Made by a program: the position numbers and the translations under genes. The notes beneath the pieces are model-generated. The model made no database searches. It had not been told where the DNA came from and saw only the letters and a list, made by a program, of their open reading frames with translations. From contig CM060066.1 of NCBI GenBank assembly GCA_030533445.1, positions 32,953,235 to 33,017,234 on the forward strand: 64,000 nucleotides of DNA, given 5' to 3'. This DNA is from Cyprinodon diabolis. Taxonomy: Eukaryota; Chordata; Actinopteri; Cyprinodontiformes; Cyprinodontidae. This document shows positions 10,325 to 64,000 of this stretch, one piece after another. Within the stretch, counting starts at the first letter, position 1. Each line of letters opens with the position of its first letter.

Positions 10325-11414
10325 TTAACACTAGAACTACCAAGGCCGTCATTTTGATAGCTCTGAGATTTTAAACATAAAGACATTTATTTACATTAAT
10401 CTTATGTTGCTGATGCTAGTTGAGTTTTTCTTTCTCTATTTCGTTCATTTTCACCTAGTTCTTTTGATAACATAAAAATGTAAAAAATATATATGGTTAA
10501 TTTTACCTCGATCTTGCACAGCTGTCATTTTGACACCTCTATTAATTGCATTGTAAATTCTTCCCGTGGTTGATTGACGTTTGGTATTATTGCTTAGGAA
10601 TCAACATTCTACCTAGAAGTCTTTGGCCAATATGGAAAATGGCTTTAAGATGAAATCTGACCTCGAAACAGGCTTTAGAAATGCTTCAAAATATTGATGA
10701 TAGTGATTCATGCAGAGAGGGAGAGACTAATGAGGAGGACTGGGTAGGAAGCGGCTCAGATTCTGACATTGAGTCCGAGGAAGATCGCCCACCTCTGGCA
10801 AAACGCAGACATATCAGTGACCCATCAGACAATAGTGAAACTTTTGTTCAAGTTTTGGATAGCACTGCCTACACCTCAGCCGATAAACTCAGTGGCCCAA
10901 AAGCCAAACCAGAGCCCATGGTCTACTATAAACACACACAGATTGGTGTGGTTATGTTGTATCAGATGATTACGAAGTATTCTGTAAAACCTCTAACGCG
11001 AAGGTGGCTTCTGGCTGTATTTTACAATCTCCTGGACATAGCAGCTATAAACGCGTTGGTTTTGTTCCGGAGCTGTTTGAAGGTCACCCTCTCATGCAGG
11101 GATTTTATCCTTGCACATGCACACCACAGGTTACCAGCCCGTCCGTCGCTAAAGAGCAGCTTTGGCGAGGCAAAGAAAACAATGCCAGGTGCGTCAGAAC
11201 TGCACACAAAAATGACTCAAAAGTCATTAAAAAAAACTCAAAAATGTGAAAAGGTGGTGTGCTGGAAATGTTCGGGGGTAATCACTTTCTGTAAATAAAA
11301 GTGTAATTACGAACTTCGAACCTGTGTGTAAAACAGTCTTTATTTATTTTACTGATTTATTTTTAATATAAATTTAGACCACAAATAATAATAGCATACA
11401 ATACAGCCTTTAAA

Positions 11415-11420
<6 letters not shown>
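10325..11420 (+). mobile_element. piggyBac element, internally deleted, 3' end not found
   Basis: TTAA (10325-10328) is followed by CACTAGAACTACCAAGGCCG, a typical piggyBac-type terminus and target site. The encoded protein has the piggyBac N- and C-terminal parts but no catalytic core. No mirrored terminus with TTAA was found before the (TA)n tract and the Tc1 element, so the right end is lost or obscured. Confidence 0.6.
10681..11298 (+). pseudogene. piggyBac transposase-derived ORF lacking the DDD core
   Basis: The 205-codon frame starts with an acidic region typical of PGBD-type proteins (SGSDSDIESEED near residue 24). At about residue 88 it passes directly into the C-terminal portion: QMITKYSVKPLTRRW, then VFYNLLDIAAINALVLF and CRDFIL. 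In piggyBac transposases some 350 residues with three catalytic Asp residues lie between these parts, so a large in-frame deletion has occurred. The usual terminal cysteine-rich (RING-like) domain is also reduced: only a few Cys remain in the lysine-rich tail. It cannot be an active transposase. A DNA-binding leftover protein is conceivable but unsupported. Confidence 0.7.

Positions 11421-11421
<1 letters not shown>

Positions 11422-11507
<86 letters not shown>
11422..11507. repeat. (TA)n microsatellite
   Basis: Nearly perfect TA run of about 86 bases. It ends at the TA target duplication of the Tc1 element. Confidence 0.95.
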
Positions 11508-11510
<3 letters not shown>

Positions 11511-13111
11511 TGGGGCAAGAAAGTATTTAGTCAGCCACCAACAGTGCAAGTTCTCCCACTTAAAAAGATGAGAGAGGCCGGTAATTTTCATCATAGATAT
11601 ACCTCAACTATGAGAGACGAAATGAGAAAAAAAAATCCAGAAAATCACATTGTCTGAATTTTAAAGAATTTATTTGCAAAATATGGTGGAAAATAAGTAT
11701 TTTGTCAATAACAAAAGTTCATCTCAGTACTTTGTTATATACCCTTTGTTGACAATGACAGAGATCAAACGTTTTCTGTAAGTCTCCACAAGGTTTTCAC
11801 ACACTGTTGCTGGTATTTTGGCCCATTCCTCCATGCAGATCTCCTCTAGAGCAGTGATGTTCTGGGGCTGTCGCTGGGCAACACGGACTTTCAACTCCCT
11901 CCAAAGATTTTCTATGGGGTTGAGATCTGGAGACTGGCTAGGCCACTCCAGGACCTTGAAATGCTTCTTACGAAGCCACTCCTTCGTTACCCGGGCGGTG
12001 TGTTTGGGATCATTGTCATGCTGAAAGACCCAGCCACGTTTCATCTTCAATGCCCTTGCTGAGGGAAGGAGGTTTTCACTCAAAATTTGACGATACATGG
12101 CCCCATTCATTCTTTCCTTCACACGGATCAGTTGTCCTGGTCCCTTAGCAGAAAAACAGCCCCAAAGCATGATGTTTCCACCCCCATGCTTCACTGTAGG
12201 CATGGTGTTCTTTGGATGCAACTCAGCATTCTCTCTCCTCCAAACACGACGAGTAGAGTTTTTACCAAAAAGTTCTATTTTGGTTTCATCTGACCATATG
12301 ATATTCTCCCAGTCATCGTCTGGATCATCCAAATGCTCTCTAGCAGACTTGAGACGGGCCTTGACATGTACTGTCTTAAGCAGGGGGACACGTCTGGCAC
12401 TGCAGGATTTGAATCCCTGGCGGCGTAGTGTGTTACTGATGGTAGCCTTTGTTACTTTGGTCCCAGCTCTCTGCAGGATCATTCACTAGGTCCCCCCGTG
12501 TGGTTCTGGGATTTTTACTCACCGTTCTTGTGATCATTTTGACCCCATGGGTTGAGATCTTGCGTGGAGCCCCAGATCGAGGAAGATTATCAGTGGTCTT
12601 GTATGTTTTCCATTTTCTAATAATTGATCCCACAGTTGATTTCTTCACACCAAGCTGTTTACCTATTGCAGATTCAGACTTCCCAGCCTGGTGCAGGTCT
12701 ATAATTTTGTTTCGGGTGTCCTTTGACAGCTCTCCAGTTTTGGCCATGGTGGAGTTTAGAGTGTGACTGTTGGGGGTTGTGGACTGGTGTCTTTTATACT
12801 GATAACGGGTTCAAACAGGTGCCATTAATGAAGGTAACGAGTGGAGGACAGAGGAGCCTCTTACAGAAGAAGTTACAGGTCCGCGAGAGCCAGGAATCTT
12901 GCTTGTTTGTAACTGACCAAATACTTATTTTCCACTATATTTTGCAAATAAATTCTTTAAAAATCAGACAATGTGATTTTCTGGATTTTTTTTTCATTTT
13001 GTCTCTCATAGTTGAGGTATATCTATGATGGAAATTACCGGCCTCTCTCATCTTTTTGAGTGGGAGAACTTGCACTATTGGTGGCTGACTAAATACTTTT
13101 TTGCCCCACTG
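11508..13111 (-). mobile_element. Tc1-like transposon, near full length
   Basis: The element starts CAGTGGGGCAAGAAAGTATT and ends with its complement (TTTTTGCCCCACTG). TA dinucleotides flank it at 11506-11507 and 13112-13113. Long terminal inverted repeats (about 200 bases) contain two copies of a direct repeat each (AAGTATTTAGTCAGCC outside, AAGTATTTTGTCAATAAC inside), the IR/DR pattern of Tc1 elements. It carries one transposase gene on the minus strand. The arms match closely, so the insertion looks fairly young. Confidence 0.9.
11724..12747 (-). pseudogene. Tc1 transposase (DD34E), one frameshift
   Basis: The transposase cuts and pastes its element at TA sites. Reading starts at the ATG on the minus strand at 12747 ([10 protein letters not shown]). 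The first about 90 codons hold the paired-like helix-turn-helix DNA-binding region ([20 protein letters not shown]). Near 12470-12482 the frame shifts by one base. The second part runs to 11724 with the three catalytic motifs: [20 protein letters not shown] and [10 protein letters not shown], spaced as DD34E. No other break is visible. The shift separates DNA binding from catalysis, so this copy should be inactive unless the shift is a sequencing error. Confidence 0.9.
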
Positions 13112-19380: not shown

Positions 19381-20362
19381 TGTTGGGATCCGGAGGCTTG
19401 CCCACCAGAGGGCACTGAGGATCCCTTCTTGAGGGCTTCTGCTGTCTGTTGGGATCCAGAGGCCTGCCCACCAGAGGGCGCCAGGAAACCCTTCCTGAGG
19501 GCTTGTGCTCACCTGCAACACCTGTCTTTCATCTCCTCATCAGCCTTGGGCCTACTTAAGGAGGAGGAGACTAACACTCCAGTGCCAGAGTGTTTGCCAG
19601 TAACGGTTAGCAAAACCTGAGCCAACCTGCCTGTCTGAGTCTTCTGACTTTTAATGACCCAAGCCTGATCCTGTTTCCCCTTTCTGTCTCACAGATAAAT
19701 CCAGCCTGACTACCAGTAACTCTGGAGAGTTATCTCTGCTGTGATCTGCCTGCCTGCTCTCTGTTGAACTCTGGAGGGCCTCTTCTATCAGATGCTGCCT
19801 GCCCGCCCTCAGAGGAAAACTAGGAGAGAGACTCAGTCTGTGATCTGCCTGCAAGCACACAGTAAGCCCTGCACTCTGACCGTCTCAACCCAGCTCTCAA
19901 GAGAGAGAGAGAAAACCAAACCTGGAGTCTGCCAGCCTGCACGCTGACCGTGTCAACCCAGCTCTCAGGAGAGAGAGCAAAACCTGGAACCTGCCCGCTA
20001 GCACTCAGACTGCCTCTTCCCAGCTCTCAGCTCTCCTCCTGCCTACACTGTGTTCCCAACCTGGAACCTGCCCGCCAGTACTCAGACTGCCTCAGCCAAA
20101 GCTCTCAGTTCTCCTCCTGCCTGCACTCAGCTCAACCTCTGCTAGCCCTCAACCCTCGGTCTGCCAACTGCCTCTGGATCCACAAGGTTTCCCCCCTCTC
20201 TGCAGCTCTGCTCATCTCCTGATCAGCGGTGAACCAAATCCAGATCAGTCTCCCTAACCCTGGACCTGTTTTATTATTTACATTTCTTAAATAAACCTTT
20301 GAACTTTTCTCCTGCCTCCGAGTGTTCTGCATATGGGCTAGGTTCCATTACCCATCATGACA
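19381..20362 (+). repeat. Solo LTR of gypsy (Tf1/sushi-like) element
   Basis: It starts TGTTGGGATC and ends CATCATGACA like the LTRs of the full-length elements at 37-48 kb. It is flanked by a perfect 5-base duplication TTCTG (19376-19380 and 20363-20367), so it is a complete solo LTR left by LTR-LTR recombination. The first 66 bases are duplicated in tandem (19381-19446 and 19447-19510). A predicted RNA start region (CCAGTGCCAGAGTGTTTG) lies near 19580, and AATAAA near 20289 is the poly(A) signal. The R-U5 part contains degenerate repeats around CCCAGCTCTC and CTGCC, which helps explain the 982-base length. Confidence 0.85.
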
Positions 20363-33424: not shown

Positions 33425-34627
33425 AGATTTCTCCCTTTCTCCATATAGGCTATCATTTCTGGTTGTTGTCAGGTTAATCATTTGATCGTTCACGCTCTCC
33501 ATAGTTCTCCTGTGGCGCGAGCACAGGGCGGCTGTTGCGCGCCTTTAGCGAGCATGCGCGTTTCCTGTCGCTTGCGCGGTGAATCTTGCCGCCTGCGCTG
33601 TGCGGAGATGCAGAGGAAACCGTATCTGATAGGGAAACGCAGCTCGACGTAACACCGGTATTTCCATCAGGAAAACGCTGTTTTGCTGCTGGAGTCATCC
33701 TCACTCTCCATCTCTCTGTGTGTGCTGTACGTTAACACCCACCAGCGGAAACACCCACCTACCAACTGACAGACGGAATCTCACTATACATCAGCCATCC
33801 TCCCCTCTCTCATGACAAGGCGCGCACCTCTGGATGACCTAAAAAAATAATCTTTAATATCTCTTAAACAAAAGTAGCACAAACAATATTTTTTTCTGCA
33901 CAAATCTGCACTATCGTTGCACTAACCATTCAGTCTATTTGCAGAGTTTTTTGACGTGGGTGGGTTGTCAGCTTCACGCAGCTGCGCACGAGTCCTATCA
34001 TGAAAAAAGGTTCATTGTGCGACCTGAGTAACGCGCAGTAACGGGGTGTCTGCAATGGTAACTGCGTTATAGTTACAGTCAAAGTAATTAGTTAGATTAC
34101 TCGTTACTAAAACAATGTAACGGCGTTAGTAACGCCGTTACTTTCAATGCCGTTAGTCCCATCACTGCTCCTAAGGTAGTTGAGAATGACCGAGCTAAGA
34201 TCCTATGGGACTTCAAGATCCAGACTGACAAACAGGTGATGGCTAACCAACCAGACATCGTGTTGATCGACAAACAGCAGAAGAAGGCAGTAGTGATAGA
34301 TGTGGCAATCCCAAGCGACAGCAACATCAAGAAGAAAGAACACAAGAAGCTTGAGAAATACCAAGGGCTGAAAGAGGAGCTAGAAAAAATGTGGAAAGTA
34401 AGAGCAGCAGTGGTGCCAGTGGTAATTGGAGCACTGGGGGCTGTGACCCCCAAACTGGGAGAGTGGCTACAGCAGATTCCAGGTAAAACATCAGAGGTCT
34501 CTGTCCAGAAGAGCCCAGTCCTAGGAACAGCTAAGATACTGCGCAGAACCCTCAAACTCCCAGGCCTCTGGTAGAGGACCCGAGCTTGAGGATGACACAT
34601 ACCACCCCACGATGGGTGAGAAAACAG

Positions 34628-34732
<105 letters not shown>

Positions 34733-34804
34733 GCTTTCTCCTTCCTGTTTCCTCAGCTGATAGATCACAGTGGCAGCTACAGAATATTCCTCCCGAACAG
34801 CCCT

Positions 34805-36089: not shown

Positions 36090-36983
36090 TGTTGGGATCC
36101 TCAGGCTTGCCCACCTGAGGGCGCCGAGGATCCCCTTCTGCTCTTTGTTATTTTCCCTTAGGGCTGGAGTTACTGTTGGGATCTGGAGATTACCCTCTGC
36201 CTCCAGCAGACTGCGCCGTGGGTCTTCTGGAGCTGGAACCTTCCAGCACACCTGGTTTCCATCTACTCATCAGGAGACCTCCACTTTATAAGCTCCTGCC
36301 AGACCTTGCTTCCACGCCGCAGTGTTGATCTTAGTTGGAAACCTGTCTCTTCGTGAAGCTCTGGATGAGCTTAAACCTCCTGTCTCTTCATGAAGCTCTG
36401 GATGAGCTTAACCTCCTGTCTCTTCGTGAACCTCTGGATGAGCTTAACCTTCCTAGCCTGCCCTCATGAGCCAAACTCTGGGAGAGCTGCCTCACTGAAA
36501 CCCTGTCTCTGGCCTGAAGCTCTGGGAGAGCTGCATCACAGGAAACCTGCCTCTAGTCTGAAGCTCTAGGTGAGCTTAACCTGCTATCTGCCCTGGTGAG
36601 CCAACCTGAAGATTCCTATGTGGATTTAACCTGAAGACTTCTATGTGGAGTTTACATGAAGGTTCCTATGTGGATATTCCCTGTTCTCTACAATTAGCTG
36701 GAAGCTCAGCCTGAAGAATCCTATGTGGATATTTCCTGTTGTTCTCTGCAGTGAGCTGGAAGCTCAAATCAAGGTCTGCCATGCTAAGCCTGAAGCTAGG
36801 TGCTTAGCTTCTCATGAACTCTGCTAACCAACAGTCTCCAGTCCCAGTCAAGACTTCAGTGACACATTCTCTGAACTTATTATCCCCTCATGTTTCAGAA
36901 CTTTAATAAACGTTTGAACTTTTGCCCTGCCTCCTCCGTGTGTGTTCTGCATCTTGGGCTTGCCTAGATTACCCATCATGACA
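36090..36983 (+). repeat. Solo LTR of gypsy (Tf1/sushi-like) element
   Basis: TGTTGGGATC start and CATCATGACA end, flanked by the perfect duplication CATGG (36085-36089 and 36984-36988). A second TGTTGGGATC copy at 36173 shows a partial duplication of the U3 start. The predicted RNA start CGCCGCAGTGTTG (about 36316) follows a TTTATAA box. A 40-base unit ending TCTGGATGAGCTTAA is repeated three times near 36341-36450, and a CCTATGTGGATAT unit is repeated several times further on. AATAAA lies near 36905. Confidence 0.85.
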
Positions 36984-37397: not shown

Positions 37398-38119
37398 TGT
37401 TGGGATCTGCAGATTCACCACCCTTCTCCAGCAGAGTGCGCTGTGGATCTCCTGGGCTGGAGCCCTCCAGCACAGCTGACGTTCATCAGCCCATCAGGAG
37501 ACCTGCCTTTATAACCAGCAGCCAGACCTTCCTTCAACGCCGCAGTGTTGACCAAGTTTGGTTAGCGAACCTGAGCCTCTGTAACTACTAGAATCTTTGT
37601 CTCTAAGGAGAAACCCTATTCTAACCAGTCTCTGTCTTCTCGCTCACAGGAAACTTGTCTCTTGTCTGAGCTCTGGATGAGCTTAGCCTGTTACCTGCCT
37701 GCCTTCCCTAGAGAGCCAAACCTGAAGATATCACTCTGGAATCCACCTGCTGCTCTTAGGAAAAAAGCTAATCACTCCAACCAAGGTCTGTCACTGGAAA
37801 GTGAGAAGCTAGACGCTGCTGCTGCTGAGCACTCTGCTGAACCAACAGTCTCTGGACCCAACCGGTTCCCCCTCTTAGAAAGGAAAGCCTGGACCTCTTC
37901 AAGGTATTCTCAGAAACATCTGAAAAGCAACGATTCATCTGTTAACCTGGCTAATCAAACTATCCGTCTCTGCAGACGCCTGAGAATCCCGCCCGGACCA
38001 GTTTACCTGAATCCAGTTCTTGTTATCTTTGTGCAACCTTTAATAAACTCTGTTGAACTTTTTATCAGTCTCCAAGTGGTGTTCTGCATGTGGGTTTGAT
38101 TCCTAAACCAACCATGACA
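37398..38119 (+). repeat. 5' LTR of outer gypsy element
   Basis: It begins TGTTGGGATC and ends ACCATGACA. TATA box TTTATAA at 37508-37514, predicted RNA start near 37539, poly(A) signal AATAAA at about 38042. The terminal ATGACA contains the gag start codon. Confidence 0.93.
37539..37549 (+). promoter_or_regulatory. Predicted RNA 5' end, self-priming partner
   Basis: GCCGCAGTGTT begins 31 bases after the start of the TATA box, where transcription should start. It is complementary at 10 of 11 positions to AACAGTGCGGC at 38121-38131, one base after the LTR. The inserted relative has a perfect 11/11 match at the equivalent sites. This fits self-priming as known for fission yeast Tf1. Confidence 0.65.
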
Positions 38120-39184
38120 GAACAGTGCGGCCAAACACAAAGCCCAGCAGATCACCTCCGGAGGAGGCTTGAGGAGCAGGACGCTCAAATCCTTGGACAT
38201 GCCCACAACATCCGTGACTTACACAACAAACTTGAATATCAGAACCAAGTCTTGCAGAATTACGCTGGCTACATGGGAAATGCTAATGCTACGCCTGCAG
38301 TCCGTTCTGTTCCGGAACCACTTCCGCCTCTAAGGTCACCGTCCGTGATGTCATTTCCTGAGTTCTGTCAGAGTCCTTCTGAAAGATTTTCAGGTAACCA
38401 AAAGGAGTGTAAAGGATTTTTGTTTCAATGTCGTTTGCTTTTTGAACACTCTCCTGGCAGTTTTCCAAATGATAGGAAAAAGATTTCCTTCATTCTCTCT
38501 CAGCTTACTGGTCGAGCCCTTGAATGGGCGGAGGCAAGGTTCTCTTCTGAGTCCAGTTTTTCATGTGCTTTTTCTGAATTCATATCTGAGTTTTCTCAAG
38601 TTTTCAACCATGACTCAGATAAAACTATTGATTCCCGAGCCCTGCTAAATTTAAAACAGGGAGATTCCACAGTAGCTGAGTTCTCCATTGACTTCCGGGT
38701 TAAAGCCGCAGCCTCAGGATGGAACGAGTGTGCACTTAAGAGTGCTTACTTTAAGGCTTTGAATGACAACATTAAAGATGAACTCGCCACAATAGACGAA
38801 CCTGCTAGTTTGGAGGATTTAATCTGTTTGACCATCAGGTTGGATAATAGACTTCGGACTAGAAATCACTCAAGGCAAAGAAACCTGAATTTTTCTGTTT
38901 CATCTCCTTCAATTAATAATGCTTCTGTTTTTTCTGGTTCCTCAGAACCCAGTGCCAAGCCAAGGTCTAAGAATCAGACTCTTCCAGCGCCTGTCCAAAT
39001 CTCTCATTTCTCTTCTTCAGAAGGAACGGAGGTCGAACCAATGCAAGTTGGACACACTAGGCTATCCCCTGAAGAGAGGCAACAGAGATTTAAGGCTAAA
39101 CTGTGTCTGTATTGTGGTGAGACTGGCCATTTTATCGCTTCATGCCCGGCTAAATCAAAAGCCAGGGCCCGTCAGAGGATGTGA
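38114..39184 (+). CDS. gag: gag polyprotein of outer gypsy element
   Basis: Gag forms the particle that packages the element RNA. The ATG at 38114 lies inside the last six bases of the 5' LTR, and the frame runs 356 codons without a break. Seen: an N-terminal helical, charged region (LRRRLEEQDAQILGHAHNI, coiled-coil-like), then a capsid-like retrotransposon gag domain (FLFQCRLLFEHSPGSFPND and WAEARFSSES, about residues 95-250), a Ser/Asn-rich linker, and a CCHC zinc knuckle near the end (CLYCGETGHFIASC). It ends at TGA 39182-39184. Pol lies in the -1 frame, open from 39154, so the frames overlap by about 31 bases. I see no canonical slippery heptamer there. The copy at 43726-44787 is a close relative. 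Confidence 0.9.
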   Translation: MTEQCGQTQSPADHLRRRLEEQDAQILGHAHNIRDLHNKLEYQNQVLQNYAGYMGNANATPAVRSVPEPLPPLRSPSVMSFPEFCQSPSERFSGNQKECKGFLFQCRLLFEHSPGSFPNDRKKISFILSQLTGRALEWAEARFSSESSFSCAFSEFISEFSQVFNHDSDKTIDSRALLNLKQGDSTVAEFSIDFRVKAAASGWNECALKSAYFKALNDNIKDELATIDEPASLEDLICLTIRLDNRLRTRNHSRQRNLNFSVSSPSINNASVFSGSSEPSAKPRSKNQTLPAPVQISHFSSSEGTEVEPMQVGHTRLSPEERQQRFKAKLCLYCGETGHFIASCPAKSKARARQRM

Positions 39185-39680
39185 GGAGTCTGACGGGCCA
39201 CCTAAAATCTGAGAAAACTCCTCATTTGTTGTTGCCTGCAACTCTGTTCTTTTCTAACCAGAATCTCACCTTATCCGCATTCATCGACTCTGGCTGTGAA
39301 AGAAACCTGATTTATTCAGACCTGGTCCAGCAGTTAAAAATTGAGACTGTTCCTTTAACTAAGCCTGTCAGAGTATCTGCTATCGATGGAAAGAAGCTTC
39401 ATCAATCCACTCATCAGACACAACCCTTAGAACTGCTTATCTCTGGTAACCACCGGGAGATGATAACGTTTTTTGTTTTTCCTTCAGCTTGCTCTCCCCT
39501 GGTGCTTGGATTCGAGTGGTTGGAACGTCATAACCCCCATATCAACTGGGCTGAACGCCACATTGAATCCTGGTCCACCTCCTGTCACGAATCCTGTCTT
39601 CGTTCCGCGGCTCATACTATTTAGTCCCCTAGAGGTAGGGGGGAGATGGACTCTCTTGACCTTACTTCTGTTCCTCCCGA
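39154..39680 (+). pseudogene. pol: Outer gypsy pol, 5' part (protease)
   Basis: This part lies in the -1 frame relative to gag. It holds an aspartic protease region with the active-site triad in AFIDSGCERNLIYSD (about 39285) and the flap/LGFEWLERHNP region typical of sushi-type elements. A nonsense codon TAG interrupts it at 39622-39624; the related inserted copy has a Gln codon at that place. The frame is then cut by the insertion at 39681-39685, and the coding sequence resumes at 45500. Confidence 0.85.
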
Positions 39681-39685
39681 GTATC

Positions 39686-40396
39686 TGTCATGATGGGTTT
39701 TAGTTGCTTAGCCCACATGCAGAACGCAATGGAGGCTGGGTAAAATGTTTAACAGTTTATTGAATGTGCAATAATACAAGTTTAGTACAGGATCTTGAAA
39801 TGGTCCGGGCTGGTTCACTGAAGTCTGCAGAGATGATAGTTTGATTAGAAAGGCAGGCAGATGAGCATGAGTCCTTAGATAATTCAGAATTCTACCTTGA
39901 CTGAATCCGGGCTTCTCTTTGAGAGAGGAGGAACCGTTGGGTCCAAAGACTGTTTGTTCAGCAGAGTACACGAGCAGCTGCAGCGTCTAGCTTCTCACTT
40001 TGAATGGCAGACCTTGATTAGAGTTTCAGCTCTTCACTAAGAGCAGCAGGAGAATCCACATAGGAATCTTCAGGTTTGGCTCACCAGGGCAGATTGGCAG
40101 GTTAAGCTCATCTAGAGCTTCAGGCTAGAGACAGGTTTCCTTAGAGACAAAAACAGAAGAGAGTTAGAATCAGATCTCTCTCTACAGACAACTAAGATTC
40201 TTATCAGTTTCGAAGGCTCAGGTCGCTAACCAAAATAAGGTCAACACTGCGGCGTCGAAGAAAGGTCTGGCAGCTGGTTATAAAGGGCAGGTCTCCTGAT
40301 GAGTAGATGTGTCTCAGGTGTGCTGGAAGACTCCAGCTCCAGGAGACCCACGACGCACTCTGCTGGAGGAAGGTGGTACAGCTCCAGATCCCAGCA
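39686..40396 (-). repeat. 3' LTR of inner gypsy element
   Basis: On the minus strand it begins TGCTGGGATC (the first bases TGTT of the other copy changed to TGCT) after GAGAGGGGGGTAC and ends CATCATGACA. 711 bases. Confidence 0.93.
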
Positions 40397-40407: not shown

Positions 40408-43400
40408 TCAACGACCGCCTCTTGGCGGTCCAGAAGATGTCGACGGGAGGGAGCTCTCATATTCCTCGATCCGGGACGGATCGAGGATATAAGAGCCAGG
40501 AACGCATGTGCGGTCCTCCGGACCATAGCCCTCCCAATCGACGAGGTACTGCCAACCGCGACCCTTTCCGACGGGAGTCCACGATCCGGCGGACGGTGAA
40601 AGCAGGATGTCCATCAATGTCCCGGGCGGGTGGAGGGGAGTCGGATGGAGGGCACAGGGGGCTAGAAACAACAGGTTTTATCTGGGACACATGGAACGTG
40701 GGATGGATGCGGAGACTCGGAGGAAGGTGTAAACGTACAGCAGAGGGGTTGATGATCTGGGCAACCTTGTAAGGACCAATGAACCGGGGGGACAGCTTTC
40801 GAGACATACCCTTGAGGGGAATGTCTCGTGTAGAGAGCCATACCTCTTGGCCAATGGAGTAGTCAGGGGCCGGGCGTCTCTTGGAGTCAGCGAAGCATTT
40901 AGTTGTGACAGAAGAACGGTTGAGGGTGGCGATGGTGTCCTTCCAGACTCTCTGACAACGACGGATGTGCTGATGGACTGAACAGACCGAAATCTCTCTC
41001 TCGTCTGCAAGGAAAAGTGGAGGCTGATAACCGAGAGATACCTGAAACGGGGATAAACCCAGTGGAAGCTGACTTGAGTGAGTTGTGGGCGTATTCGATC
41101 CAGGTCAGGTACTGACTCCAGTCGGTGGGGTTTTTTGAGGTCAGGCAGCGGAGAGTGGACTCAAGTTGCTGATTCATTCTCTCCGTCTGCCCGTTAGACT
41201 GTGGATGATAACCAGAGGTTAGAGAGGACTTACAGTTTAAAGCTGAACAGAAGGCTTTCCAGACTTGAGAAATGAACTGTGGGCCGCGGTCAGAGAGAAT
41301 TTCCTGTGGGATGCCATGGAGCCGGAAAACATGCTTCACCAGAAGCTGTGCCGTCTGGAAAGCCGTGGGAAGTTTTCTGAGGGGAATTAAATGACAAGAC
41401 TTGGAGAAACGGTCGACTATGGTTAAAATGGTGGACATACCTCTGAAAATCGGGAGACCAGTGACAAAATCTACGGCAATATGAGACCAGGGACGGGTAG
41501 GGACAGGTAGAGGATGCAGCAGGCCAGAAGGTGGTTGGTGAGAGGTTTTGTTTCTGGCGCAGATGGGACATGCCAAAACATCCTCTTTTACGTCCTTGTG
41601 TAAGGATGGCCACCAGAAACGTCTTGTAATCAGGGCTATTGTTCTGCTCACTCCAGGATGGGCAGAAAATTTAGCTGCATGCATCCACTGGATCAGGCGG
41701 GATCTGACAGAAGAAGGAACATAGGTTTTATTTGGAGGGCCCTTACCTGGGTCAGGTTCAGAGGCAAGGGCAGAGTTCATGAGATCAGTGATCTCCCAGG
41801 AAACCACTTCTACAGTACAGGAGGCAGGAAGAACAGGCTCGGGTGTCTCAGGTTGATCAGCAGAGTAAAGACGAGAGAGAGAATTGGGCTTGACGTTCTT
41901 GGAACCAGTTCTGTAAGAGATTATGAGATTGAATCGGGAGAAGAACAATGACCATCTAGAATGACGTGGGTAGGCTTGTTTGGCGGATTGGAGATAGGCC
42001 AGGTTTTTATGGTCTGTCCAGACCAAAACTGGATGTTCGGCCCCCTCGAGCCAGTGTCTCCACTCCTCCAAGGCGAGTTTGATGGCTAGAAGTTCACGAT
42101 CTCCGACATCATAGTTTTGCTCCGCTGGTGAGAGTCTACGAGAAAAAAAGGCACAGGGGTGAATCTTTTGGTCTGATTCAAGTTGCTGAGATAAAACAGC
42201 TCCAACACCGGAGTCTGAGGCATCCACCTCTAAGATAAATTGTTTAGAGGGATCTGGCTGGATCAGAATGGGAGCTCTAGAAAACAGGGTTTTTAATTTT
42301 TCAAAAGCTTTTTGAGCTTCAGGTGTCCATTGAAAAGTCTTCTTTACCGAAGTCAGGGTTGTGAGAGGTAGAGCTGTTTGACTGTAATTCCTTATGAAGC
42401 GTCTGTAAAAGTTTGCAAAACCAAGGAACCTCTGAAGCTGTTTGCGGTTTTCAGGTGTCGGCCAGTCAAGAACTGCCTTTATCTTGTCTTCGGATGGCTT
42501 AACCTGCCCGCCCTTGAGCACAAACCCTAAAAAAGTGACAGATGGTTGGTAAAATTCACATTTTTCTGCCTTCACAAAGAGCTTGTTTTCCAAAAGTCTC
42601 TGAAGGACCAGACGGACATGTTTCTTGTGCTCAGATAGGTTCTTGGAGTAGATCAAAATGTCGTCAATGTACACAAACACGAATATATTCAAAAAATCTC
42701 TGAGGACATCATTGACTAGAGCTTGAAAACAGGCTGGAGCGTTTGTGAGACCAAAAGGCATGACCAAGTACTCAAATTGGCCTAAGGGGGTCTTAAAGGC
42801 TGTCTTCCATTCGTCTCCTTCTCTTATCCTAAGAAGGGTGATAAGCATTTCTCAAATCGAGCTTGGTGAAGACTGTTGCACCCTGAACAGGTTCAAATGC
42901 TGATGCCAGTAATGGTAGTGGGTACTTATTTTTGACGGTTATCTGGTTAAGACCTCTGTAATCTATACAGGGTCGTAGGGAACCATCCTTTTTGCCCACA
43001 AAAAAGAAACCAGCACCAAGAGGAGAGGAAGATGGGCAGATTATCCCAGCAGCCAGAGACTCATTAATATATTTCTCCATGGTCTCACGTTCAGGCTTAG
43101 AGATGTTATAAAGTCTGCTGCTGGGCAAAGGAGCTCCTGGTAATAATTCAATGGCACAATCATATGGTCTGTGAGGTGGAAGAGACGTAGCACTGACCTT
43201 ACTGAAGACTGGTGCCAGATCATGATATTCGGAAGGAACAGAAGTAAGGTCAGGAGAGTCCATCTCCCCCCTACCTCTAGGAAACTGAACAGCGGGAGCT
43301 GCAGAACGAAGACATGTCTCGTGACAGGAGGTGGACCAAGACTCAATGTGGCGTTCAGCCCAGTTGACATGGGGATTATGCCGTTCCAGCAACTCGAATC

Positions 43401-43753: not shown

Positions 43754-44787
43754 GACTTAGCCGGGCAAGAAGCAATGAAATGGCCAGTCTCACCACAGTA
43801 TAGACACAGATTTCCCCTGAATCGTCGTTGTCTTTCCTCAGGGGTTAGCCTTGTGTGTCCAATCTGCATGGGTTCAACTTCTGCTCCATCTGAGTGAGAG
43901 ACTTGGACTGGAACAGAAAGAGTCTGGTTTTTAACCTTTGGCTTGGAAACGGGTTCTGTGGATCCAATAAAAACAGAAGCATTATTTAATGCAGGGGTTG
44001 ACACAGAAAAATTCAGAGTTCTTTGTCTAGTGTTGTTTCTAGTTCGGAGCCTGTTATCCAATCTGATGGTTAAACGAATTAAATCCTCCAAACTATTTGG
44101 TTCGTCGATCGTGGCTAGTTCATCCTTGATGTTATCATTTAAGGCCTTAAAATAGGCACTCTTAAGTGCACATTTGTTCCATCCAGAGGCTGCGACCTTG
44201 ACCCGGAAGTCGATGGAAAACTCAGCCACTGTGGAATTTCCCTGTCTTAAATTCAGCAGGGCTCGGGAGTCAATAGTTTTATCAGAGTCGTGGTTAAAAA
44301 CTTGGGAAAACTCTGAAATAAACTCGGAAAAAGTACAAGTGAAACTGGATTCAGAGGAGAAACTTGCCTCCGCCCATTCAAGGGCTCGTCCAGTGAGTTG
44401 AGAAAGAATGAATGATATTTTCTTTCTATCATTCGGAAAACTGCCAGGAGAATGTTCAAAAAGTAATCGACATTGGAACAAAAATCCCTTACAATCTTTT
44501 GGGTTACCTGAGAATCTTTCAGGCAGGCTGGGACGGAACTCAGGAAATTACGTCACTGCCGGTGACCTTGGAGGCGGAAGTGGATCCGGAACTGGACCTA
44601 CCGCTGGCTTGGCGTTAGCATTACCCATGTAACTGGCATATGTTTGTAGCATCTGATTTTGGTGTTCAATTTTAGTATGCAACTCACGGAGGGTATGCGC
44701 ATGTCCAAGGATTTGAGCATCCTGTTCCTCAAGCCACCTACGGAGGTGATATGCTGGGCTTTGTGTTTGGCCGCAGTGTTCTGTCAT
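43726..44787 (-). pseudogene. gag: gag of inner gypsy element, one nonsense codon
   Basis: 353 codons from an ATG inside the LTR end (44785-44787) to the stop at 43726. It has the same layout as the outer gag: charged N-terminus (LEEQDAQILGHAH), capsid-like domain (CRLLFEHSPGSFPNDRKKIS) and CCHC knuckle (CLYCGETGHFIASC). A TAA at 44548-44550 interrupts it about 80 codons in, where the outer copy has Ser. Pol follows in the -1 frame. Confidence 0.88.
44770..44780 (-). promoter_or_regulatory. Self-priming binding site of inner element
   Basis: On the minus strand AACACTGCGGC starts one base after the 5' LTR. It is the exact 11-base complement of GCCGCAGTGTT in the LTR (45341-45351), which itself begins 31 bases after the start of the TATA box (45376-45382). 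It lies within gag codons 3-7. Confidence 0.7.
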
Positions 44788-45494
44788 GATGGCTTTTAGT
44801 TGCTTATCCCACATGCAGAACACAACGGAGGCTGGGTAAAAGGTTTAACAGAGTTTATTGAATGTGCAATAATACAAGTTTAGTACAGGATCTTGAACTG
44901 GTCCGGGCTGGTTCACTGAAGTCTGCAGAGATGATAGTTTGATTAGAAAGGCAGGCAGATGAGCATGAGTCCTTAGATAATTCAGAAATCTACCTTGACT
45001 GAATCCGGGCTTCTCTTTGAGAGAGGAGGAACCGTTGGGTCCAAAGACTGTTTGTTCAGCAGAGTACACGAGCAGCTGCAGCGTCTAGCTTCTCACTTTG
45101 AATGGCAGACCTTGATTAGAGTTTCAGCTCTTCACTAAGAGCAGCAGGAGAATCCACATAGGAATCTTCAGGTTTGGCTCACCAGGGCAGATTGGCAGGT
45201 TAAGCTCATCCAGAGCTTCAGGCTAGAGACAGGTTTCCTTAGAGACAAAAACAGAAGAGAGTTAGAATCAGATCTCTCTCTAGAGACAACTAAGATTCTT
45301 ATCAGTTTCGAAGGCTCAGGTCGCTAACCAAACTAAGGTCAACACTGCGGCGTCGAAGCAAGGTCTGGCAGCTGGTTATAAAGGGCAGGTCTCCTGATGA
45401 GTAGATGCGTCTCAGGTTTGCTGGAAGACTCCAGCTCCAGGAGATCCAAGGCGCACTCTGCTGGAGGAAGGTGGTACAGCTCCAGATCCCAACA
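44782..45494 (-). repeat. 5' LTR of inner gypsy element
   Basis: On the minus strand it starts TGTTGGGATC at 45494 and ends CATCATGACA at 44782. TATA box TTTATAA at 45376-45382. 713 bases. Confidence 0.93.
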
Positions 45495-45499
45495 GTATC

Positions 45500-47583
45500 A
45501 TGATCTGGCACCAGTCTTCAGCAAGGTCAGTGCGACGTCTCTTCCACCTCACAGACCATATGACTGCGCCATAGATTTACTACCAGGAGCCCCTCTTCCC
45601 AGCAGTAGATTGTATAACATTTCCAAACCAGAGCGTGAAACCATGGAAAAATACATCAATGAATCTCTAGCTGCTGGAATAATTCGCCCATCTTCATCTC
45701 CTCTCGGTGCTGGTTTTTTGTTTGTGGGTAAAAAGGATGGTTCCCTGCGCCCCTACAGGGGTTTGAATCAGATTACCGTCAAAAATAAATATCCCCTACC
45801 ATTACTGGCATCAACTTTTGAACCTGTACAAGGTGCTACAGTGTTCACCAAGCTCGATCTAAGAAACGCCTACCACCTCCTTAGAATAAGAGAAGGGGAT
45901 GAATGGAAAACAGCCTTTAAGACCCCCTTAGGGCAATTTGGGTACCTGGTCATGCCTTTTGGACTCACGAACGCTCCTGCCTGTTTCCAAGCTCTTGTCA
46001 ATGACGTCCTAAGAGATTTTTTGAATGTTTTTGTTTTTGTCTACATCGATGATATTTTGATCTACTCCAAAAACCTCTCAGACCACAGGAAACATGTTCG
46101 TTTAGTCCTTCAGAGGCTACTAGAAAATAAACTTTTTGTGAAAGCTGAAAAATGTGAATTTCATCAACAATCTGTCACTTTTCTAGGGTTTTTGCTCGAG
46201 GGCGGGCAGGTGTAGCTATCAGAGGACAAGATAAAGGCAGTTCTGAAGTGGCCTACACCTGAAAACCGCAAGCAACTTCAGAGATTTCTTGGGTTTGCAA
46301 GCTTTTACAGGAGGTTCATAAGGAACTATAGCCAGACAGCTCTACCCCTCACAGCTCTTACTTCTGTCAAGAAAACTTTTCAATGGACCCCAGAAGCCGA
46401 AGATGCCTTTAATAAATTAAAAAAACTCTTTTCCAGTGCCCCCATCTTGGTCCAGCCTGATCCTACGAAACAGTTCATCCTTGAGGTTGATGCATCTGAT
46501 TCCAGCGTAGGAGCTGTGTTATCTCAGCAGTCAGATTCTGACCAGAAAACTCACCCATGTGCATTCTTTTCACGCAGACTCTCCCCAGCCGAGCAAAATT
46601 ATGATGTTGGAGACCGAGAACTTATGGCTATTAAGCTCGCCCTGGAGGAATGGAGACACTGGCTCGAGGGGGCTGAGCATCCAGTACTGGTTTGGACTGA
46701 CCACAAGAACCTGGCTTATATCCAATCGGTACAGAGATTCAACCCACGGCATTCAAGGTGGTCCTTGTTCTTCTAACGTTTCAATCTCATCATTTCCTAC
46801 AGACCCGGTTCCAAGAACGTCAAGACCGACTCTCTCTCTCGTCTGTATTCCACCGATCAACCTGAGACACCCGAACCTGTTATCCCTGCCTCATGTACAG
46901 TTGGAGCCGTTTCCTGGGAGATCACTGATCTGATCAACTCTGCCCTGGCCTCTGAACCTGACCCAGGTAGTGGTCCTCCTAATAAAATGTATGTCCCGTC
47001 TTCCGTCAGATCCCGCCTCATCCAGTGGATGCACGCAGCGAAATTCTCGGCCCATCCTGGAGTGAGCAGAACCATCGCCCTCATAAACAGACGATTTTGG
47101 TGGCCGTCTCTGCATAAAGACGTTAAAGAGTACGTTCTGGCTTGTCCCATCTGCGCCCGAAACGAGACATTCCCCTTAAGGCCATGTCAAAAAAACTTTC
47201 AACCAGGTTCATCGGTCCGTACAAGATCGATCAGATAATTCATCCCTCTGCTGTCTGCCTGCACCTGCCACCTTCTCTGCGCATCCATCCTACATTCCAT
47301 GTCTCTCAGATAAAGCCTGTCATCACGAGTTCTTTGTGCCCGCCTTCCGACTCCCCTCCACCCGCCCTGGACATTGACGGTAATCCGGCTTACACGGTTC
47401 GTCGGATCGTGGACTCCCGTCGGCGAGGTCGCGGTTGGCAGTACCTCGTCGACTGGGAGGGCTACGGTCCGGAGGACCGCACCTGGGTCCCTGGCTCATT
47501 TATCCTCGATCCATCCCTGATTGAGGATTATGAGAGTTCCCTCCGGTCCACATCCTTGGGACCGCCAAGAGGCGGTCGTTGAG
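45500..47583 (+). pseudogene. pol: Outer gypsy pol, 3' part (RT, RNase H, partial integrase, chromodomain)
   Basis: It resumes the frame broken by the insertion. RT: YIDD at 46042-46053, with [15 protein letters not shown] before it. A 9-base deletion removes three residues near 45752. Nonsense codons lie at 46213-46215 (TAG) and 46774-46776 (TAA). RNase H ([17 protein letters not shown]) and the integrase zinc region (to CPICARN, about 47160) are present. At about 47165 a deletion of roughly 725 bases, judged against the inner copy, removes the whole D,D,E integrase core and changes frame. The integrase C-terminal part and chromodomain ([20 protein letters not shown]) run to 47582. It cannot integrate on its own. 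Confidence 0.9.
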
Positions 47584-47593
47584 AGGGGGGTAC

Positions 47594-48319
47594 TGTTGGG
47601 ATCTGCAGATTCACCACCCTTCTCCAGCAGAGTGTGCTGTGGATCTCCTGGGCTGGAGCCCTCCAGCACAGCTGACGTTCATCAGCCCATCAGGAGACCT
47701 GCCTTTATAACCAGCAGCCAGACCTTCCTTCAACGCCGCAGTGTTGACCAAGTTTGGTTAGCGAACCTGAGCCTCTGTAACTACTAGAATCTTTGTCTCT
47801 AAGGAGAAACCCTATTCTAACCAGTCTCTGTCTTCTCGCTCACAGGAAACTTGTATCTTGTCTGAAGCTCTGGATGAGCTTAGCCTGTTACCTGCCTGCT
47901 TGCCCTAGAGAGCCAAACCTGAAGATCTCACTCTGGAATCCACCTGCTGCTCTTAGGAAGGAAAAAGCTAATCACTCCAACCAAGGTCTGTCACTGGAAA
48001 GTCAGAAGCTAGACGCTGCTGCTGCTGAGCACTCTGCTGAACCAACAGTCTCTGGACCCAACCGGTTCCCCCTCTCAGAAAGGAAAGCCTGGACCTCTTC
48101 AAGGTATTCTCAGAAACATCTGAAAAGCAACGATTCATCTGTTAACCTGGCTAATCAAACTATCCGTCTCTGCAGACGCCTGAGAATCCCGCCCGGACCA
48201 GTTTTCCTGAATCCAGTTCTTGTTATCTTTGTGCAACCTTTAATAAACTCTGTTGAACTTTTTATCAGTTTCCAAGTGGTGTTCTGCATGTGGGTTTTAT
48301 TCCTAAACCAACCATGACA
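47594..48319 (+). repeat. 3' LTR of outer gypsy element
   Basis: It follows the purine tract GAGAGGGGGG and TAC, starts TGTTGGGATC and ends ACCATGACA. 726 bases, about 98.5 percent identical to the 5' LTR by eye. Confidence 0.93.
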
Positions 48320-54758: not shown

Positions 54759-54764
54759 CAGCTC

Positions 54765-55553
54765 AATCCGTGTATCATTCGTTCTTTCTATTTTCAATTG
54801 CCAATCAAAAAACAAAAAATAAAAAATTGACTGGTAATTTTGTTTTTTTGTTTTTTATGGTTAAACCAAAAACGAAAAAAGGATTGGGTTTTTCATATAT
54901 CAATTCTAAGCTCCGATCAAGAATACGAAATGGAAAAACGGACAGCAACGCAGAATTTGATTTTAATATTTAATCGGTACAGTTTACGTGACCCGGAAAT
55001 AGCTCTTTGCGCAGCAGTTGGGGTAATGAAGTGGCTACCATGGCGACACTAGAACCACACACTATGTTGATCGAGAAGCTGTTTGTTGTTGCTAGTTAAA
55101 AGTACAGTGCACAGAAAAGTTTCAAGAAAAAAGTTATACCTGGAAAATCCTGCTGATTTTCTCCGTTGTCATGTCCTCCTCCTTAAGAGTCACACGCTTG
55201 GATCCTCCAAATAACATGTAACTGTCCATGGCTGATAGGTCCGACTGCCTTATCTGGTGCAGCTTGATCGAACGTGGTGGGGGTAAGCCAATTGTTTTTT
55301 TAGCTAACGCTCCACCAAACTTCCGGGTCACGTAAATTGTACCAATTAAATATTAAAATCAAATTCTGCGTTGCTGTCCGTTTTTCCATTTCGTATTCTT
55401 GATCAGAGCTTAGAATTGATATATGAAAAACCCAATCCTTTTTTCGTTTTTGGTTTAACCATAAAAAACAAAAAACAAAATAACCAGTCAATTTTTTATT
55501 TTTTGTTTTTTGATTGGCAATTGAAAATAGAAAGAACGAATGATACACGGATT
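54765..55553. mobile_element. Long-TIR DNA element of unknown superfamily
   Basis: Two arms of about 234 bases (54765-54998 and 55321-55553) are near-perfect reverse complements, beginning AATCCGTGTATCATTCG and mirrored at the other end. The 6-base duplication CAGCTC flanks the whole exactly (54759-54764 and 55554-55559). The 320-base centre has an open frame on the minus strand (next entry). The target duplication length does not fit hAT (8), Tc1 (2), piggyBac (4) or Harbinger (3). Confidence 0.75.
55134..55331 (-). other. Open frame in centre of the long-TIR element, possible captured exon
   Basis: 65 codons from an ATG whose first bases lie in the right arm (starts MTRKFGGALAKKTIGLP). The sequence looks protein-like (RQSDLSAMDSYMLFGG, KRVTLKEEDMTTEKIS). 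At FQ|V the bases CCAG|GTATAAC could be a splice donor near 55140. I do not recognise the family. It may be the first exon of the autonomous element's transposase or a host exon captured by the element. Confidence 0.35.
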
Positions 55554-55875
55554 CAGCTCCTCTGTTTATTATATGGTAATCTATATTTGCTCTATTACCT
55601 CCCTTACTTCTTACGCTCTTTTAGGGCCTAATGTATTAGAAGAAAATTGTAGTAATAATCTTTCAACTCATAAGCTAATATGAGGCAACAACCTGATACC
55701 AACTTTAGCTCTGTCTGTTTGTTTTGACTAATGTGTTTTCATGTAAACTGTATGTTTCTCTACAACTATTATCCAAACATTATTATTCTATTTTTCATAG
55801 GACAGTGGACCATCAATAGATCATTCATGTGAGGAAAGTTGTCAGAAATCCGGAGAGGACCTTTACAAGGATTTT

Positions 55876-57198: not shown

Positions 57199-57840
57199 TG
57201 TTGGGATCTGGAGGTCTGTCCCCCTTCCTCCAGCAGTGGGTGCCCCTTGGTCTCCTGGAGCTGAGCTGAGGACCACACCTGAGATCCATCAGTCATCAGG
57301 AGACCAGCTTTATAAGCAGAGGCTGAGCTTCCCTTCAGTGCCAGAGTGTTGAATAAGTCATGGTAGCCAACCTGAGCCAACCAGTCTGTCTGACTCTCTG
57401 ACTCCCCTGAAACCTTGAACCAGATCCTGATTAGTTTTTGTCCTCTCTGTTCTTCTAGGAAGATCCTGACTGAAACCTGGAGCTCTGGTTGAGCTCATGT
57501 TTGGGAAACCTGCCTGCCTGCTCTGAGAAGCCAAACCTGAAGAACCTCAGCCTGCATCTCCCTGCTAGTTCTCTGGAGAGAACTTGGAGACCCACTCAAG
57601 GTCTGAACCTCACAACTCTGAAGCCAGTTCCTGCCGCCGATCCTCAGTCTCTGGACCCAACCGGTACTCTCCCTCTGACGCTCAGCCTGAAGCTCTGGAC
57701 AGATAATCCTGTGTTACCAGCCCCGAACCTGTTTCCAACACCTGTCTGAACCTCGTGTTTTTTCAATAAACAGTCTAACTTTCCTCCTGACTCCGTGTGT
57801 GTTCTGCATATGGGTTAGGAACCTAAAACCCATCATGACA
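57199..57840 (+). repeat. Solo LTR of gypsy (Tf1/sushi-like) element
   Basis: It starts TGTTGGGATCTGGAGG and ends CATCATGACA. The flanks GCGTC (57194-57198) and GAGTC (57841-57845) match at 4 of 5 positions. TTTATAA near 57310 is followed about 31 bases later by GTGCCAGAGTGTTG, the variant RNA start also seen in the 19.4-kb LTR. AATAAA near 57766. The shortest of the LTRs here (642 bases). Confidence 0.82.
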
Positions 57841-62071: not shown

Positions 62072-63610
62072 CCCTAAAAAAAATCTTTAGTTTAAACAAC
62101 AAAGAACCCAAATGCAAAAAAAGAGAAAAATCCAACCTTTTATTTAAGTACACTACTTTTGTGGTAAAAATACATTTACACATATAGACAATAAAAAAAC
62201 ATGAAATCATATGTTCCACAATTATTGGCACCCCTGATGTTAATACTTTATACAGCCCCTTTTGACAACAAGACAGCACTTAATCTCCTCCGATAACATT
62301 TCACCAGATTGGAGAACACAGAGAGGGATCTTTGACGATTCTTCTTTGCACATTCTTTCTAGATCATCCAGTGTCCTGGGTCCTCTCTTGTGCACTCTCC
62401 TCTTTAGCTCGACCCACAGGTTTTCTAATGGGTTGGGGCCTGGGGACCGAGATGGCCATGGGAGGACCTTGATTTTGTGGATGCTGAACCATTTTTGTGT
62501 AGATTTTGCCACAGGTTTCGGATCATCATCCTGCTGAAAGACTCAGTGACGACCCATCTTCAGCTTTTTGGCAGAGGCCATCAGGTTTTCATTTAAGATA
62601 TCCTGGTATTTCAAAGCTTTCATGATGCAATGCACCCTAAAAAGGTTCCCAGGGCCTTTTTAAAAGAGTTGCAGGCCCACAGCATTACAGATCCTCCATC
62701 AAACCTCACCGTGGGTATTAGGTCCTTTTCGGCATACTCATCTTTTGTCTTAGCCAGACCCACTTAGAGTGTTTGTTGCCAAAAAGCTCAATCTTAGTCT
62801 CATCTGACCAAAGCACACAATCCCAGTAGAAGTCCCAGTGCCACTTAGCAAACTCCAGACGTTTATGTTTGTAAGTGTTGGTGAGAAAAGGCTTTTTCCT
62901 TACATGGCTTCCAAACAGCTTGTTGGCATGGAGACTTTGTGACCCAAAGATTCCACTCTTTGTTGTAATTCTGTGACAGTAAGCGTAGGACATTTTTAAC
63001 TTCTCTTACTATCCTCCTCACTGGGCGTTGTGGCAAGATAAACTTAGGACGTCTTCCAGCCTTATTTGTCACTGTTCTAGTTGTTTTAAACTTCTTTAAG
63101 ATTCCTATGACTGTAGATACAGGCAAGTTAAGGCGAGTGGCTATTTTCTTGTAACCATTGCCTGAATTATGAAGGTTGACGCACATCTGCCTTACTTGAA
63201 TTGTGTGTTCTCTTGTCTTTGCCATGCTGACTAATTGGTAAGAGAATTAGGCCTCTGCATCACGTCATATTTATACCCCAGGGAAACAGGAAGTCATGAA
63301 TCACTAATTAAAAGTTCCTAGAAACCCTTACCAACTTTAGCAACTACAGAAAAATACATGTAATGGAAATCAATTACATTTTTTAACGGAATTGTTAGGG
63401 GTGCTGATAATTGTGGCACACATGATTTCATGTTATTTATTTTCTAAATGTGTGATTTTATTTTTACCACCAAAGTAATGTACTTAAAAAAAAGGCTGGA
63501 TTTTTCTTTTTTCTATTTGGGTTCTTTGTTGTTTAAAAGAAAAGGAGATTTTTTTTTTAAGTCCTCAACCACATCTGAAACAGGGGTGCCAATAATTGCG
63601 GAGGTCACTG
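62072..63610 (-). mobile_element. Tc1-like transposon, second family, left end lost
   Basis: The right end is complete: IR/DR-type inverted repeat ending AGGTCACTG followed by TA. It contains an outer direct repeat (complement CAATTATTGGCACCCCTGTT) and an inner one near 63400. The left arm (62072-62235) matches the inner part, with TTTAAACAACAAAGAACCCAA and GGTGCC/GGCACCCC. It lacks the outermost about 60 bases, so the element is terminally truncated there. The arms are more diverged than those of the 11.5-kb element. Confidence 0.8.
62240..63225 (-). pseudogene. Tc1 transposase, decayed
   Basis: The minus-strand start at 63225 (MAKTREHTIQVRQMCVNLHN) leads into the helix-turn-helix region (KKIATRLNLPVSTVIGILKK). 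The frame breaks near 62990. The next frame carries [20 protein letters not shown] (first catalytic Asp, about 62790). A stop follows near 62720, and the last piece (62240-62512) has [15 protein letters not shown] with the catalytic Glu. The second Asp region (DDDPK near 62530) is also recognisable. At least three breaks make it inactive. Confidence 0.85.

Positions 63611-63688
<78 letters not shown>
63611..63688. repeat. (TA)n microsatellite
   Basis: TA run of about 78 bases that starts at the TA target of the Tc1 right end. Confidence 0.95.
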
Positions 63689-63689
<1 letters not shown>

Positions 63690-63692
<3 letters not shown>

Positions 63693-64000
63693 GATTTAAC
63701 AGTATAAAACTTAAACTGTTAAATGGGTTATTATTAGTTGTGTTTGTGATCCACCTGTTTTGTTTGCCTTACATCCTGCATCTTGATTTGCTTTTACTCC
63801 ACTTTTATTTTTCTTATATTTTATTATTTAATTCATGTAAAGTGCTTTCATTTTTTTTTCATGTACTGAATATAGCTATACAAATAAACTCTCCTCGCCT
63901 TGCTCTGTGGTACACTGCAACAGCAAACACTTCTATAAATTGCCACATGTACGTATATGCATTTGTGACTGTTGTATAAGCTTTAGCAGCATTTATTAAA
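63690..64000. other. Unannotated sequence with LINE-like tail
   Basis: No gene seen. TGTAAAGTGCTTTC at about 63836 and AGCTATACAAATAAACTC at about 63873 resemble the 3' tail of L2-type LINEs. Confidence 0.4.

Follow-up and report, generated by a model that had tools for sequence, protein, structure and literature searches.

A Tf1/sushi-type retrotransposon family of Cyprinodon diabolis was probably primed by the first 11 nucleotides of its own RNA

Self-priming of reverse transcription has been described for the Tf1/sushi group of LTR retrotransposons, Butler et al. 2001 being cited for the vertebrate elements in passages of two later papers (PMC10085805, PMC6317226), and a passage of a third implicates self-priming from fungi to vertebrates (PMC4600332); the mechanism itself is therefore already known. 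In Tf1, Tf2, Tj1 and sushi-ichi, the primer occupies the predicted 5′ end of the RNA, with its complement just past the 5′ LTR, and the fish elements analyzed here share this layout. They also resemble the group in having a chromodomain (outer copy) and an LTR ending in CA, and resemble Tj1, as described in a passage of PMC4600332, in their 5-bp TSD. The end motif CNTNACA of a sushi LTR model accommodates the fish LTR end CATGACA, and the passages on that model deal with LTR models and place no PBS in gag (PMC3601003). Unlike in the Tf1/sushi group, the docking site for the primer (PBS) of the fish elements lies in gag codons, with the gag AUG in the LTR. The yeast element Ty1 is a copia element. 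As in the fish, its PBS is placed within the GAG coding region (5′ UTR of 53 nt, PBS at 95-104) in the part of PMC5454406 concerned, but, unlike the fish element, Ty1 is primed there by initiator tRNA-Met.

The window, by which we mean the whole 64,000-nucleotide stretch of C. diabolis DNA analyzed, carries an outer element on the plus strand that is split by a nested inner element on the minus strand (Table 1). Their gag and pol pieces matched the Ty3_capsid, RVT_1, RNase H, integrase and SH3_Tf2-1 domains. The outer pol piece has the chromodomain of the Tf1/sushi group (Chromo, E 9.9e-12; SH3_Tf2-1, E 2.7e-15), and the domain search of the inner pol piece returned SH3_Tf2-1 only and no Chromo. 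The inner gag frame is broken by an internal stop, the outer pol is spread over several frames, and both copies are degenerate. Outside fission yeast, members of the Tf1/sushi group connect Gag to Pol through a -1 frameshift. Outer frames 38057-39184 and 39154-39624 stand in a -1 relation; a slippery heptamer was not found at 39101-39200 of the outer copy, and the inner copy has such runs only beyond the gag stop. GAGAGGGGGGTAC directly precedes both 3′ LTRs. Among the matches listed, most of them unnamed, the named Gag relatives were from fish, the closest from Cyprinodon, Xiphophorus, Poecilia and Kryptolebias, and a pol relative came from Takifugu (P0192, 63%). We estimate at roughly 90% the probability that these elements, now degenerate, are chromoviral LTR retrotransposons of the Tf1/sushi type and formerly used the initial 11 nt of their own RNA as primer. 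Elsewhere, the window holds an inverted repeat at 54760-55558 (160-base arms, 97% complementary, 322 bases apart), and arrays of short-period repeats, all of one family and lying on both strands, at 11358-11549, 34577-34768 and 63555-63720.

Table 1. Features of the nested elements and of related LTRs, in window positions
Feature	Position	Strand	Details
Probable solo LTR, relative with other primer type	19381..20362	+	GCCAGAGTGTT at 19584-19594; TTCTG both sides
Diverged solo LTR	36174..36983	+	Same 11-mer GCCGCAGTGTT at 36316-36326
Outer 5′ LTR	37398..38119	+	722 nt; 5-bp TSD CATAG
TATA box TTTATAA, outer 5′ LTR	37508..37514	+	
Predicted RNA 5′ end and putative self-primer GCCGCAGTGTT, outer	37539..37549	+	Start predicted from TATA spacing
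Outer gag frame	38114..39184	+	ATG at 38114, within LTR end CATGACA
Outer PBS AACAGTGCGGC	38121..38131	+	10/11
Inner 3′ LTR	39686..40396	-	11-mer at 40243-40253
Inner pol frame: RT (part), RNase H, H2C2, integrase core	40899..42851	-	
Inner PBS AACACTGCGGC	44770..44780	-	11/11
Inner 5′ LTR	44782..45494	-	713 nt; 5-bp TSD GTATC
Inner gag ATG in LTR end	44785..44787	-	
Predicted RNA 5′ end and putative self-primer GCCGCAGTGTT, inner	45341..45351	-	
Outer pol C-terminal piece: SH3_Tf2-1 and Chromo domains	47127..47582	+	
Outer 3′ LTR	47594..48319	+	11-mer at 47735-47745
Probable solo LTR, relative with other primer type	57199..57840	+	GCCAGAGTGTT at 57340-57350

An earlier note had claimed that an 11-mer 31 bases after the start of the TATA box is complementary to the bases beginning one base past the LTR, perfectly in the inner copy and with one mismatch in the outer. 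Both the positions and the degree of match were borne out in the two 5′ LTRs, TTTATAA starting at LTR base 113 in the inner one, so that the fish elements have the complement between about TATA+31 and the post-LTR bases that characterizes the Tf1/sushi group. The spacer between LTR and PBS is a single G in both window copies. When the inner LTR was dinucleotide-shuffled 20,000 times, an exact match of at least 11 bases anywhere in the LTR arose 5 times. The test accepted a match from any one of the initial five post-LTR positions and did not require the TATA+31 position. When 215,431 background bases, including the window, were scanned for the layout (TATA, 24-50 nt, primer, then a PBS 0-3 nt past an LTR-like end), ten matches of 8 bases, five of 9 and one of 11 were found, the last of which we take to be the inner copy itself. 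With at most one mismatch, the 11-mer occurs seven times in the window, in the five LTRs and two PBSs of the family, and none of 100 shuffles reached seven. The five window LTRs are 55-99% alike, those of different lineages 55-75%; the solo LTR shares 62% identity with the inner LTRs and 55-56% with the outer ones.

Across these five LTRs, the longest invariant run, ACGCCGCAGTGTTGA, spans 15 columns and exceeds the 11-mer by two bases on each side, and the outer copy has A's 2-3 bases upstream of it. Both features would suit a variant of self-priming in which transcription begins a few bases ahead of the 11-mer, with a short unpaired tail or a trimmed primer. However, the pairing starts exactly at TATA+31 and the bases on either side of the 11-base duplex, including the one just upstream of the primer, are unpaired in both window copies, which makes such a start rather unlikely.

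Self-priming from TATA+31 was further supported by comparison with other copies, a covariation check that the earlier note had proposed. Primer and PBS were found to change together among 41 fish copies, comprising the two window copies, 11 sister copies, eight from the neighbouring 200 kb and 20 from a Gag search. Pairing was 11/11 in 29 copies and off by one mismatch (five) or one G.U (four) in nine more; one copy had two mismatches, one had four, and no pairing was found in L101. Primer bases 4-5 are GC facing PBS GC in 18 copies and AG facing CT in 17, and neither crossed type (primer GC with PBS CT, or primer AG with PBS GC) occurred among the 41. A third primer type, present in one copy, differs at three bases, all three of which are matched in the PBS. 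When PBSs were reshuffled among the primers of the 14 distinct rows, the observed pairing was reached 2 times in 10,000, and 3 times in 10,000 for 13 rows with the four-mismatch copy left out; the fish copies are related, so these figures overstate independence and are not true probabilities. Compensated changes were seen at primer bases 3, 4, 5, 7 and 8, those at bases 3, 7 and 8 on one copy each, and the independent ones are few. In the four-mismatch copy (LTR 32782427), an LTR and a gag of different types are joined.

The copies near the window were found in the 200 kb upstream plus the window itself, where GCCGCAGTGTT, GCCGGAGTGTT, GCCAGAGTGTT and GCCGGATCGTT were among the 11-mers. Eight LTRs outside the window in these 264 kb precede a gag start, and their PBS mostly shifts with the primer. 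A match at the primer position was present for 8 of 29 LTR matches, including the two window copies; three more had off-position matches only (1-2 mismatches), and a U3 control gave two. The PBS pattern used there was built from known copies and allowed up to 4 mismatches, which biases it to similar sites. For the Gag search, the His-Ser type Gag P0020 gave 173 genome matches, from which 20 were chosen by hand for spread; 15 of these paired at 11/11, four were off by one base (one a G.U) and one had nothing. The region is a dense element cluster (C5:32753235-33017234; L064-L083 and the window), with 29 LTR-start matches in 264 kb, two of them 66 bases apart, and several loci also carrying gag or pol. 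A second LTR start lies at 19447, inside the first probable solo LTR of Table 1.

The single mismatch of the outer copy was traced with the outer LTR as genome query, which gave 40 matches, two of them in the window; the other 38 were examined. The 11-mer was intact in 36 of them, and 11 were sister 5′ LTRs followed by gag. The PBS of these sisters was AACACTGCGGC in nine and AACACTGTGGC in L030, and L062 had the standard PBS beside a changed spacer and primer; none of the 11 had the G found at 38125 in the outer PBS. This G turns Gag residue 4 into Gln, where His was commonest among the matches listed (17 of 23 relatives). Because the G is absent from the sisters and His prevails at this residue, the outer mismatch most likely arose afterwards, as a change private to this copy.

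Priming by a tRNA is the usual mode of LTR elements, and the 3′ end or an internal part of a tRNA could be the primer here, with the LTR match being incidental. Nevertheless, in both copies the 45 bases past the LTR lack the TGG that a CCA-ended tRNA needs (the first is at +75 in the outer and +46 in the inner), and the matching of PBS changes by LTR changes in other families is not predicted by tRNA priming, leaving it very unlikely. No tRNA genes were found in the window or the 200 kb beside it. Still less probable is that the 11-mer is a core-promoter element with a coincidental post-LTR complement: it is highly conserved at the expected initiator place, but such a match arose anywhere in only the 5 of 20,000 shuffled LTRs noted above, and the complement tracks the primer across families.

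The earlier note held that there is no space for a tRNA primer site outside gag. This understated the arrangement: gag starts within the LTR, and so the PBS itself lies inside gag, where it is read as codons 3-6. With the start codon in the LTR end CATGACA, the LTR end, spacer and PBS read M-T-E-H-C-G, and a PBS in the gag frame means that the primer dictates Gag residues 4-5. Primers with GCC-GC pair with His-Cys codons, those with GCC-AG with His-Ser, and the lone GCCGGATCGTT copy with Arg-Ser. The outer copy has no in-frame ATG before the LTR-end ATG in the frame open from 38057, and the inner copy has a second one nine codons upstream, at 44814 in U5. Among the matches listed, 23 of 120 Gag relatives have MTE in their first 60 residues, followed by HC in seven, HS in ten and other residues in six; an MW start is present in 11 of the 23, with P0032 as a twelfth containing such a start. 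The next in-frame Met lies downstream of residues conserved among the Gag relatives, and for this reason Gag likely starts at or before the LTR end. That the PBS bases are kept for the Gag N-terminus and not for priming would fit their frame and the conservation of Gag residues 1-7 among relatives, but is highly improbable, as a constraint on Gag does not account for the accompanying changes at the untranslated start of the LTR. No report of a self-priming PBS within gag was found in the open-licence literature searched, although Butler et al. 2001 may show one.

Self-priming was also compared outside fish. A pol alignment gave 17 loci in prokaryote assemblies that resemble contaminating eukaryote chromoviruses; "fungal-type" is our working label for them. 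Seven lie in CAKZGI contigs (L001-L004, L008, L010, L016), eukaryote-type chromoviruses in a record labelled as a cyanobacterium (Trichormus), which are likely assembly contamination; in L002 and L010 the first and last 55 bases overlap, and the contig looks circular with one collapsed LTR. The viral contigs scanned held no relatives, and a Gag search of genome contigs returned none. Five of the 17 loci (L002, L004, L008, L009, L010) share the layout, with a match of 11-12 bases, a primer 31-33 nt after TATA and a PBS 2 nt after TGACA; L004 and L010 differ from L008 by one compensated pair. L013, which has a complete LTR pair, matched over 9 bases at TATA+44, a length near background. No layout match was found in 11 of the 17, where a 5′ LTR is not necessarily present. 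Complementary pairs of 10-13 bases without the layout also occurred at other fungal-type loci.

In the five loci, the gag ATG follows the PBS by 10-178 nt, and primer and PBS are 123-164 nt apart. The fish elements differ from them in a mostly longer distance (334-632 nt in 19 copies; 150 in one other) and in the flanking helix: a helix of post-primer bases with the LTR end, beside the primer duplex, was present at four of the five loci (≤0.05 in both shuffles), whereas a search of 24 fish LTRs, five from the window, detected no U5-side flanking helix, which does not prove its absence. Nor was the "pretzel" RNA of the Tf1/sushi group, three duplexes with helices flanking primer:PBS, detected in the fish copies. 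Right after the primer, many fish copies (L084-L103) have CCAGTTAYGGTTAGC or CCAGTAATGG, resembling CACCAGTTACGG of fungal-type elements, and some have CCAGTTAYGG, which is also like CACCAGTTACGG.

An extended pairing of the leader with post-PBS sequence was not supported: shuffles were as good in 20 and 42 of 1000 for the outer copy and 400 and 568 of 1000 for the inner, and other LTR segments pair more strongly with the post-PBS sequence. In a tighter window, the pairing of the outer copy was matched by none of 363 other partners and by 11 of 152 other leads; for the inner copy, the counts were 121 of 359 and 42 of 149, respectively. A candidate 12-bp stem in the leader, some 165 nt upstream of the PBS, had stem-length p values of 0.08-0.13 in both outer LTRs and the inner 5′ LTR and was not the longest stem in the inner 3′ or solo LTR; its fold probability was 0.9-0.97 in the inner copy and 0.01 in the outer. 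Stems of at least 8 bp at 161-168 nt were present in 5 of 19 fish copies (L095, L096, L097, L098, L102).

Self-priming by the RNA 5′ end, as the earlier note had read this locus, is thus supported by match, position and covariation as the best reading. Transcription would start at TATA+31 in the LTR, giving an RNA that begins GCCGCAGUGUU, and this end would fold back over 570-580 nt to pair with its complement, which is present one base past the 5′ LTR. By analogy with Tf1, RNase H would cut after base 11 and reverse transcriptase would extend the 11-mer through the LTR end. Full-leader folds speak against this pairing: the primer:PBS helix had a probability of 0.0 in the outer copy and 0.04-0.14 in the inner, although under a model that excludes pseudoknots, and minimum-energy folds of the full leader lacked this helix in the outer copy.

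The mechanism is ordinary for the Tf1/sushi group and is well supported here by comparative evidence that is new; the arrangement is unusual. More tentatively, one short stretch may combine four roles, forming the end used by integrase, starting gag, docking the primer and encoding the Gag N-terminus. Since the LTR primer can overwrite the docking site at each copying round, changes in the RNA primer might be written into Gag; since pairing with codons 3-6 would cover the start codon region, priming might block translation of gag; and the clade may prime without a flanking helix. The fish copies, many from a single genome, supply comparative, compensatory evidence in favour of self-priming by a family of vertebrate elements, and their docking site is placed within gag. 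Protein databases could thereby record primer evolution, with the LTR 11-mer predictable from Gag starts such as MTEHCG and MTEHSG, and the choice between translation and reverse transcription offers a testable switch.
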